Below are positions 41,509 through 45,263 of a stretch of DNA of 60,785 nucleotides, piece after piece (the stretch's first letter is position 1; every line of letters starts with the position of its first letter). A program made the translations under genes and the position numbers. The notes under the pieces were generated by a model that was not told the origin of the DNA, made no database searches, and saw only the letters and a list, made by a program, of their open reading frames with translations. This DNA is from Elusimicrobiota bacterium (GTDB taxonomy: Bacteria; Elusimicrobiota; Elusimicrobia; UBA1565; UBA9628): contig JAUYSH010000090.1 in NCBI GenBank assembly GCA_030696455.1, forward strand, positions 1 through 60,785. The letters are read 5' to 3'.

Positions 41509-41952
41509 ATGGTTCGCCTCTCCTCCGCGGCTCACGGCCAGGGCGTCTTCGCCGAACGCCCCTACGCCGCCGGCGAGGTCATCCTCGTCTTTACGGGAAA
41601 GGAACTGAGCACGGCGGAGGCCGACCGCCGGGACGTGCGCCGGCACTGCCTCGACGTCGGCTCCGGGCTTCAGCTCTACGTCGAGGCTCCGGCGCGCTTC
41701 CTCAACCACTCCTGCGACCCCAACGCGGGCCTGCGCGACGCCGTCACGCTCGCCGCGATCCGCGCCATCCCGGCCGGCGAGGAGATCCGCTTCGACTACT
41801 CGACCTGCGTGCCGGACGCGTCCTGGGCCCTCGACTGCCGCTGCGAAAGCCCCCTGTGCCGCGGCCGCGTCGTCGCCTTCCCCCGCCTCGACGCGAAGAC
41901 CCGCCGCCGCCTGCTCGATCTCAAGATCGTCCCCGCCTGGCTGCGCGTGTAA
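41509..41952 (+). CDS. SET-domain protein
   Basis: A 147-residue protein consisting of a SET domain and a post-SET Cys motif. GQGVFAERPYAAGEVI begins the fold, RFLNHSCDPNAG carries the SAM-binding and knot motif, GEEIRFDYS carries the catalytic Tyr, and CRCESPLCRG forms the post-SET zinc site. It is predicted to methylate lysines using SAM; bacterial substrates are mostly unknown. TAAAAT lies six bases before ATG. Confidence 0.9.
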   Translation: MVRLSSAAHGQGVFAERPYAAGEVILVFTGKELSTAEADRRDVRRHCLDVGSGLQLYVEAPARFLNHSCDPNAGLRDAVTLAAIRAIPAGEEIRFDYSTCVPDASWALDCRCESPLCRGRVVAFPRLDAKTRRRLLDLKIVPAWLRV

Positions 41953-42229: not shown

Positions 42230-42258
42230 TTGACATCGTACATATGTTCGAATACACT
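42230..42258 (+). promoter_or_regulatory. Consensus promoter with an SOS-like palindrome
   Basis: TTGACA at 42230-42235, exactly 17 bases, TACACT at 42253-42258, and the start codon six bases later. Within the spacer, 42237-42250 reads CGTAC-ATAT-GTTCG, one base from the LexA box CGAAC-N4-GTTCG of Gram-positive and some other bacteria. A repressor there would block the promoter. Confidence 0.7.
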
Positions 42259-42264
42259 GAGGGC

Positions 42265-42852
42265 ATGCTCTTTCCCTCGCTGCGCCCCATGCTCCCCGAC
42301 GGTCTCCCGTCTCCCGGACGCTACGTCGTCTCCGGCCCGGGGGACCTGCCCGGACGCTTCCTGACGAGCCTGTGCCCCGCCTTGCTCCAGGGGGCGAGCG
42401 TGCTGTGGCTCGACGCGGGCAACTCCTTCAACGCCTACGGCGCGGGCTATGCCTCGCGCTGCCTCGGCGCGGACTCGCGCGCGGCGCTGGCGCGCGTGCG
42501 GGTGGCCCGTCCGTTCAACCTCTACCAGCTCGAGACCATGGTCAAGGTCAAGGTGCCCGAATGCTGGCGTGGGGAGCCGGTCGTGATCTCCGACCCCATG
42601 CCCTTGTTCTACGACGCCGACGTGCCCGCCGCCGCCGCGCGCCGCGTGCTGACGCGCGTGCTGGAGGGGATGGCCGTGCTGCCCGCGGCGTGGCTCGTGC
42701 TCGCCACGGACCGCGAGCCGCCCGAGGAGCGGCGGGGCTGGGAAGACGAATTGAGCCGCCACGCGAAGGGCTCCATGAGGTTCTATGGGACGGACTTTAC
42801 CGACGATCGTGCAGACCTTGCAGGCCGAGCAGGAAGCCTGGAAGCTTTTTAG
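42265..42852 (+). CDS. RecA/RadA-like protein of a PolB2 cassette, lacking a normal Walker A
   Basis: A 195-residue protein with the core of a RecA/KaiC fold: VLWLDAGNSFNAYGAGYAS corresponds to the strand-2 region, ARVRVARPFNLYQLETMV to the strand-3 region and PVVISDPMPLFYDADV to the Walker B region. The Walker A position reads SGPGDLPGRF, with Arg for Lys and Phe for Ser/Thr, so ATP hydrolysis is doubtful. Leaderless start, six bases after TACACT. It is the first gene of a tightly overlapped three-gene unit and may play a part like ImuA or a RecA-family accessory in lesion bypass; that role is inferred. Confidence 0.7.
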   Translation: MLFPSLRPMLPDGLPSPGRYVVSGPGDLPGRFLTSLCPALLQGASVLWLDAGNSFNAYGAGYASRCLGADSRAALARVRVARPFNLYQLETMVKVKVPECWRGEPVVISDPMPLFYDADVPAAAARRVLTRVLEGMAVLPAAWLVLATDREPPEERRGWEDELSRHAKGSMRFYGTDFTDDRADLAGRAGSLEAF

Positions 42853-43054
42853 ACGCGCGCTGCGAAAAGAGGATCAGGAGGCGTTCGACGCGCTGTGGCG
42901 CTTCGCGCGCTATCACGCCGCGCCCGCCTCGATGGCGAGCCGGCCGATGCCCTTCGAGGCGGCGCTGATGGCGATGCTCGTCGCCATGGAGCGCCAGCTG
43001 CTCGAGCTGGAGAAAGTAAAAAAGAATGGGAACGACGGAGGGGTGGCTCTTTGA
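42785..43054 (+). CDS. Small helical protein of the PolB2 cassette
   Basis: An 89-residue, largely helical protein (TLQAEQEAWKLFRRALRKED, then FEAALMAMLVAMERQLLELE) with no catalytic motif. It overlaps the RecA-like gene by 68 bases and the polymerase gene by 29, in different frames, so expression must be coupled. The start is uncertain; later starts would shorten the N-terminus. Its place suggests an adaptor between the other two proteins. Confidence 0.65.
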   Translation: MGRTLPTIVQTLQAEQEAWKLFRRALRKEDQEAFDALWRFARYHAAPASMASRPMPFEAALMAMLVAMERQLLELEKVKKNGNDGGVAL

Positions 43055-45263
43055 CGCCTACCCCGAGGCGCAGGGCATGCGCGTCTGGCTCGTCGAGCGC
43101 GGCGGGCGCCGCCGCGCCGTTCTCGACCCGTGGCGCCCGGCCCTGCGCGTCCACGGCGGCCGCGCCGCGCTGACGCGCGTCCTGCGCCTGCTCGCCGGAT
43201 TGCCGTATCGCGCGGAGACCTCCTGGGTTTCGAAGACGGAGCTGTTCAGCGGCGCGTCCTTGCGGGTGCTCGAGGTCCGCGTTCCGGTGCTCGAGCGCGA
43301 TCCCCTGGTCAAGCGCCTGGCGGCCCTGGAGGTCCCGCTGTACGACGCCGACATCCATCTCGTCCAGGTCTGGCACTACGAGCGCGGCCATTTCCCGCTC
43401 GCTCTCTGCCGCTTCGCGCTCGACGGGGAGACGCTGAGCGGCTTTGAGCTCCGCGACGACCCGTGGGCGGTCGACTACGAGCTGCCCTCGCTGCGCTTCC
43501 TTCACCTCGCCTGGGCGCCCTCGGAGATCGCCGGCCGCCTGGACCCGAGCCACGGCTCCCAGCGCCGCCTGCTGCTCTCCGTCGACGGGCGCGTTTCCGA
43601 GTTGGAAGGCTCAGCTCAACAACAGCTCGAGACGCTCGCCCGTCGCCTGCGCGCCGAGGACCCCGACGTGATCACCACCGACTGGGGCGACTCCTCGCTG
43701 CTGCCCGAGCTCGAGGCGCTGTCGCTCGAGCACCGCGCGCTCTTGGATTTTTCGCGCGATCGCGGCCGAGCCATGGGCGCGCGCAAGGACCGCACCTTCT
43801 ACACCTACGGCCGCGCGGTCTATCAAGGAGGCGCGCGCTATCTGTTCGGGCGCTGGCACCTCGACCTCAAGAACAGCTTCATGCTGAAGGAAACCGGGAC
43901 CGCGGGCCTCTTCGAGATCGCGCGCATCGCGCGCATCCCCGTCCAGCGCGCCGCGCGCTGCACGATCGGCACGAGCCTGAGCTCGATGCAGATGCGCTGG
44001 GCCTGGGACCGGGGCGTGCTGATCCCGATGGACAAGCAGCAGGCCGAGGATTTTAGGCCGGCCGGTGAATTGCTCATATCCGACAAGGGCGGCCTCGTCT
44101 ACGAGCCCGAGGTGGGCTGGCACCGGAGCGTCGCCGAGTTCGATTTCTCCTCGATGTACCCGGAGATGATGGTGCGCCGCAACATCTCGCCGGAGACGGT
44201 GAACTGCCCGTGCTGCCCGGAGAACCTCGTCCCCGAGGTCGGCCACCGCCTGTGCTCCAAGCGCCGCGGCCTGGTGCCTTCGGTGCTCGAGCCGATCCTT
44301 CTCAAGCGCGCGAAGTACAAGGCGCTCGCGAAGGCGGGCGGGCCTCACGCGGCCGACCACAAGAGCCGCGCGGCGGCGCACAAGTGGTGCCTCGTCACCT
44401 GCTTCGGCTACCTCGGCTTCAAGAACGCGCGCTTCGGCAAGATCGAGGCGCACGAGTGCGTGACCGCGTGGGGACGCGAGGTGCTCCTGCGCGCCAAGGA
44501 CGCCGTCGAGAGCCGCGGCTATCATCTGCTCCACGCGCTCGTGGACGCGATCTGGATCACGGTGACGCCCGGCGCGGACCTCGAGGAGCTGCGGCTCGCC
44601 ATCGAGAAGGAGGCGGAGTGCCCTCTGGCGCTCGAGGGCGTCTACGAGTGGATCCGCTACTGCCCGTCGAAAGAGGACGCGCGCTCGGGCGTGCCCGGGC
44701 GCTACTTCGGCGCGTTCACGGACGGCGCGCTCAAGCTGCGCGGCATCGCCTCGCGCCGGCGCGACACGCCGGTTCTTCTCAAGGAGATGCAAAGCGATCT
44801 GCTTGGTATCCTCGCGAAGGTGTCTCCGGGCGGCGAACTCAAGGCGCTCGTTCCCGAGCTCCTGCAGATCGTCGAGGAGTATCGCCTGCGCCTGCGCGAA
44901 GGCCGCGTGAGCGCCGACGAGCTCGCGATCGCCTTCCATCTGTCCCGCGAGCCCGGCGACTATAGCCATGACACCGTCTCGTCCCTGGCCGCCAAGCAGC
45001 TCGCCGCGGCGGGCGTGACCTTGCACGTCGGGGAGACCGTGCGCTACGTGATCACCAACGCCTCGGACGCGGTCAAGGAGTGGCGCTCCCGGCCCTTGAG
45101 CCTGATGGAGCACGGCCTCGAGTACGATCAGCGGAAATATCTGGAGCTGCTCGAGCGCGCGGCCTGGGAGATCCTCGACGGCCTGGCGCCGCCGCCCGCG
45201 CCCGAGCCCAAGCGCCGCGCCGCCCCGCCGACGCGCGCGCTCGAGCTGCCCCTGGGCTGGTGA
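43026..45263 (+). CDS. PolB2-type family B DNA polymerase, probably without proofreading
   Basis: A 745-residue family B polymerase. Motif A is EFDFSSMYPEMM with Asp373. Motif B is KWCLVTCFGYLG with Lys453. Motif C is ALVDAIWI with Asp507, aligning with the second, catalytic Asp of DTDS; the first is lost. The exonuclease domain (about 170-320) is degenerate: DPDVITTDWGDS replaces the usual exo II motif (N-x3-F-D), and no clear exo I or III carboxylates are seen. Two metal-binding Asp residues thus remain for synthesis without obvious proofreading. Context and the promoter suggest a damage-inducible bypass polymerase. Confidence 0.88.
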   Translation: MGTTEGWLFDAYPEAQGMRVWLVERGGRRRAVLDPWRPALRVHGGRAALTRVLRLLAGLPYRAETSWVSKTELFSGASLRVLEVRVPVLERDPLVKRLAALEVPLYDADIHLVQVWHYERGHFPLALCRFALDGETLSGFELRDDPWAVDYELPSLRFLHLAWAPSEIAGRLDPSHGSQRRLLLSVDGRVSELEGSAQQQLETLARRLRAEDPDVITTDWGDSSLLPELEALSLEHRALLDFSRDRGRAMGARKDRTFYTYGRAVYQGGARYLFGRWHLDLKNSFMLKETGTAGLFEIARIARIPVQRAARCTIGTSLSSMQMRWAWDRGVLIPMDKQQAEDFRPAGELLISDKGGLVYEPEVGWHRSVAEFDFSSMYPEMMVRRNISPETVNCPCCPENLVPEVGHRLCSKRRGLVPSVLEPILLKRAKYKALAKAGGPHAADHKSRAAAHKWCLVTCFGYLGFKNARFGKIEAHECVTAWGREVLLRAKDAVESRGYHLLHALVDAIWITVTPGADLEELRLAIEKEAECPLALEGVYEWIRYCPSKEDARSGVPGRYFGAFTDGALKLRGIASRRRDTPVLLKEMQSDLLGILAKVSPGGELKALVPELLQIVEEYRLRLREGRVSADELAIAFHLSREPGDYSHDTVSSLAAKQLAAAGVTLHVGETVRYVITNASDAVKEWRSRPLSLMEHGLEYDQRKYLELLERAAWEILDGLAPPPAPEPKRRAAPPTRALELPLGW

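Follow-up and report, generated by a model that had tools for sequence, protein, structure and literature searches.

A PolB2 mutasome operon with a predicted LexA operator in its core promoter in an Elusimicrobiota bacterium

What is encoded by a compact set of three overlapping genes, one of them for a divergent DNA polymerase, in a bacterial genome of the phylum Elusimicrobiota, and what switches it on? The genes lie in a stretch of 60,785 nucleotides (the window; contig JAUYSH010000090.1 of assembly GCA_030696455.1, which was placed among Elusimicrobiota), where they are co-directional on the forward strand directly after a sigma-70-like promoter, in the order iRadA (about 42265–42852), PPB2, i.e., Partner of PolB2 (42785–43054), and PolB2 (43026–45263). 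The overlaps of 68 and 29 bases given by a first-pass annotation of this DNA are exact, spanning 42785–42852 between iRadA and PPB2 and 43026–43054 between PPB2 and PolB2. That annotation had inferred a parallel mutasome built on a B-family polymerase, unsure how far such cassettes had been described; the same operon is already in the literature: linkage of the three genes was reported in archaea and several bacteria, in some with lexA (Makarova et al. 2014, PMC4104785), and the name PolB2 mutasome, like those of iRadA and PPB2, comes from Timinskas et al. 2025 (PMC11791011), who for bacteria gave the gene order iRadA-PPB2-PolB2 and also described clamp motifs, the MGRT arm and a heteropentamer modelled by computation. 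The present locus resembles that bacterial branch in its three genes and their order, the MGRT arm of PPB2, an iRadA without an ATP site, an xxD-type motif C, a decayed exonuclease, a lexA link and a candidate clamp-binding tail, and almost every feature by which membership can be tested is found here. Thus, the operon is a PolB2 mutasome of the bacterial branch, a clear new example of a known three-gene set rather than a new system. It differs from the published branch in having a predicted LexA operator within its own core promoter and no lexA alongside; Elusimicrobiota are not mentioned in the text of Timinskas et al. 2025 (PMC11791011). The best explanation, to which we assign a probability of about 0.88, is that the operon encodes a PolB2 complex for translesion synthesis and is repressed by LexA, with support at the sequence level from gene content, the operator in the core promoter, the state of the catalytic motifs and conservation.

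The third gene codes for a family B DNA polymerase of 745 residues that matches NF004416 (5e-111) and PF00136 (2e-29); its AlphaFold2 model (pLDDT 89) is similar in structure to family B polymerases of archaea (2e-40). The identification as PolB2 with a degraded exonuclease made at first pass is borne out: in the phmmer alignment the ExoII stretch NGDNF-x-F of Pyrococcus PolB is paired with WGDSSLL, and no DxE is conserved among relatives in the ExoI region, so that, judged by these motifs, the proofreading domain is degenerate. Motif C reads L505-V506-D507, with the first catalytic Asp replaced by Leu505. This replacement and the loss of the exonuclease motifs would also fit an older reading of PolB2, in which the enzyme has no catalytic activity and the complex serves a structural or regulatory role at stalled forks, and an inactivation of PolB2 was indeed proposed by Makarova et al. 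2014 (PMC4104785). We regard this as unlikely, in that Asp373 of motif A and Asp507 of motif C, both picked out in the earlier annotation, are invariant in 29 homologs, and polymerase activity is known for Sulfolobus Dpo2, a PolB2 whose motif C is altered in a like manner (IID) and which extends mismatches without proofreading despite lacking the same catalytic Asp (PMC8764526). The D(K/R) motif published for the loop before the palm is seen only in part: the window protein has DR within KDRTFYTYGR (residues 254–263), where near relatives have QRSF, ERSF or GRSF, with only the Arg conserved. Near the C-terminus, ALELPL (residues 738–743; 45237–45254, forward strand) resembles a beta-clamp-binding motif, a putative function, and many bacterial homologs have tails of an LPL/LPLF type; clamp-binding motifs in PolB2 or iRadA occur in only a fraction of PolB2 mutasomes (PMC11791011). 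In one complete Elusimicrobiota genome (L034/L113) the PolB2 gene is interrupted in its last part, which may reflect a pseudogene or an assembly error.

The first gene had been described as RecA-like, with SGPGDLPGRF in place of Walker A. The second part of this description is confirmed, as the Walker A lysine and threonine are absent and GKT occurs in none of 30 homologs; of the first part, the RecA fold without an ATP site stands, whereas the affinity lies with the RadA/Rad51 line rather than with RecA or ImuA. Single-sequence searches, Pfam and NCBIfam among them, gave no match for this protein, but a profile of seven orthologs matches archaeal RadA (6.6e-8), and the best Foldseek matches of the AlphaFold2 model (pLDDT 86) are all RadA/Rad51 (1.2e-8). 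On this profile and predicted fold, gene 1 is best assigned to the RadA/Rad51 line, and, as in the iRadA of the mutasome, it is a RadA-like partner without ATPase residues or an N-terminal domain. That it has lost ATPase function and acts as an adaptor, as was also proposed at first pass, would agree with the published models. The same observations bear on a derivation of the locus from the ImuA-ImuB-DnaE2 cassette, of which it would be a member or a direct derivative with gene 1 descended from ImuA. The two share a logic, namely a RecA-fold partner, an accessory protein and an error-prone polymerase in a cassette under SOS control; in contrast, ImuA-ImuB-DnaE2 uses a C-family polymerase and the Y-family-like ImuB, no ImuA, ImuB or DnaE2 model matches among the Pfam and NCBIfam results, which gave no sign of homology to the locus, and gene 1 sides with RadA/Rad51 by profile as well as by fold. 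Such a derivation is, accordingly, exceedingly improbable.

Between these two genes lies PPB2, an arCOG07300-like protein whose 89 residues and MGRT N-terminus agree with the roughly 90-residue, MGRT-starting subunit of the mutasome. The stretch MGRTLPT is invariant in seven aligned orthologs, and PPB2 adjoins PolB2 across phyla. PPB2 also has similarity to two uncharacterised PHROG families (phrog_26583, 2.9e-10), and phages may thus carry relatives of it.

The control of the operon can be read from its promoter (42230–42258, forward strand), which combines a −35 element TTGACA (42230–42235), a 17-nt spacer and a −10 element TACACT (42253–42258), matching the consensus at 10/12 positions; one such motif was found against 0.1 expected in shuffles. 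As noticed in the earlier annotation, the spacer holds a palindrome, CGTACATATGTTCG (42237–42250, no strand assigned), which has one mismatched arm base and is one base off the Bacillus-type CGAAC-N4-GTTCG; in Bacillus subtilis, CGAACN4GTTCG serves as the SOS box (PMC9578287 Table 1). An imperfect copy of this kind might have arisen by chance in a constitutive promoter outside LexA control, the more so as the window holds no excess of boxes with one mismatch (two found versus 4.15 expected). The palindrome rises above chance by its position and its conservation in relatives, not by the window count: exact boxes sit in the same −35/−10 spacer in 8/8 close relatives whose operon has no linked lexA, in the layout TTGACAT, CGAACN4GTTCG, ATTAwACT or a near variant, and the same −35/box/−10 layout recurs in the promoter of lexA in six genomes of the window's genus. 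The earlier annotation had staked SOS control on the presence of the palindrome at recA and lexA, and exact boxes occur at both. A chance palindrome is therefore quite unlikely, and, judged by its operator sequence, which is shared with recA and lexA but for one mismatch in the window copy, the operon most likely belongs to the SOS regulon. As this arm mismatch sets the window box apart from those of the relatives, repression may be weaker here. The operator also bears on the start of gene 1: its reading frame is open from ATG 42244, a codon that falls within the LexA box, ahead of the −10 hexamer, and comparison with relatives places the beginning of the conserved protein at about ATG 42265, which is most likely the iRadA start. 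As the −10 element TACACT ends at 42258, the iRadA transcript would be expected to start near this ATG and might thus be leaderless.

Elsewhere in the same genome, the promoters of recA, lexA, umuDC and radA/sms carry exact boxes; genome-wide there are 11 such sites, while the reversed control gives 0; about 4 are predicted from base composition alone, so that some intragenic sites are due to chance. The umuDC operon has its box at C50:5411-5424, such that one genome has both Pol V and the PolB2 mutasome with the same operator type, whereas that of radA/sms lies about 30 bases before its ATG (C147:19229-19242). A further exact box, CGAACATACGTTCG (C54:3249-3262), occupies the promoter region common to an integron integrase gene (TIGR02249, 9e-130) and a divergent radical SAM gene of the PA0069 family.

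The surroundings of the operon in the window look chromosomal, with genes for citrate synthase, a SET-domain protein and a glycosyltransferase, and a prophage reading was accordingly set aside. The small SET-domain protein (PF00856, 5.8e-14) shares the operon's strand and is encoded shortly before it, at 41509–41952. A defence system was considered and rejected, as PADLOC gave only weak matches (the polymerase part of a homing-endonuclease-type model; BrxC).

The spread of the operon was traced through 80 PolB2 loci of a public collection of genomes, with hosts from Elusimicrobiota, Nitrospirota, Ignavibacteriota, Chlorobiota, Chloroflexota, Armatimonadota, Bathyarchaeota and others, of which the 70 not cut short upstream were used for gene linkage. 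The expectation that the three genes co-occur elsewhere holds: all three are present at 65/70 of these loci, and among 199 genomes of Elusimicrobiota PolB2 occurs in seven and PPB2 in exactly the same seven. In a tree of 29 PolB2 proteins the Elusimicrobiota sequences group together (100/99) within the bacterial set and apart from Bathyarchaeota, a pattern that, as far as these sequences go, agrees with the single archaea-to-bacteria transfer of PolB2 proposed earlier (PMC11791011).

A lexA gene stands directly upstream on the same strand at 15/80 PolB2 loci. Among the more distant Elusimicrobiota checked, the genome's only lexA adjoins the PolB2 operon in three, and a fourth has a second lexA; loci of the phylum with lexA adjoining the operon are L026, L027, L028 (lexA downstream), L029, L035, L036, L038, L039 and L040. 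The lexA promoters read in these lexA-linked Elusimicrobiota are without the CGAAC box, some having other palindromes instead, e.g., CTGAACATCTGTACAG, and LexA specificity thus seems to have changed within the phylum. We favour, with moderate confidence, a switch in the control wiring of the Elusimicrobiota PolB2 mutasome: deeper lineages would keep lexA, mostly the only copy, beside the operon, whereas the window's genus and one further genus of the family would have dispensed with the linked lexA in favour of an operator of the operon's own, laid out like the lexA promoter of the genus, with Pol V and the PolB2 mutasome then falling under one LexA in the same cell.

Taken as a LexA-controlled translesion operon, the locus can be fitted to a simple course of events. 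DNA damage would activate RecA, LexA would be cleaved and the operon switched on. The products would assemble as in the published heteropentamer model, with PolB2, one iRadA and three PPB2, iRadA docking on PolB2 as one RadA subunit does on another and the PPB2 arm coming to lie near the active site. PolB2, predicted to lack proofreading, would then extend mismatched or lesion-terminated primers, its tail possibly tethering the enzyme to the beta clamp. By its sequence features, the locus most likely encodes an SOS-induced translesion extender complex.

An experimental counterpart is Sulfolobus Dpo2: it is induced by DNA damage, is required for targeted mutagenesis and extends mismatches efficiently (PMC11791011, PMC8764526). 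Its operon has the homologous three genes, the xxD motif C and damage-inducibility; it differs in being archaeal, with damage control that involves Orc1-type regulators as against the predicted LexA here. Extender activity has been measured for archaeal PolB2 only and is predicted for the Elusimicrobiota locus by analogy. A likeness might also be drawn with the Pol V mutasome (UmuD'2C-RecA), which is likewise a translesion polymerase of several subunits, induced in the SOS response and partnered by a RecA-family protein, and whose umuDC genes in this genome carry the same LexA box type; Pol V differs in its Y-family polymerase, in having active RecA as the partner and in an unrelated accessory subunit.

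In the literature found, studies of PolB2 mutasomes in bacteria are all computational, and what the present analysis adds to them is regulation, in the form of a predicted LexA box in the operon promoter. A LexA operator that can be read base by base, is conserved in eight relatives and is common to recA, lexA and umuDC offers direct sequence evidence for a bacterial PolB2 operon in the SOS regulon. In eukaryotes, Pol zeta works with Y-family polymerases, and a parallel might be drawn to the coexistence of B-family and Y-family enzymes seen here. The locus thus provides a testable case of B-family and Y-family mutasomes existing side by side.
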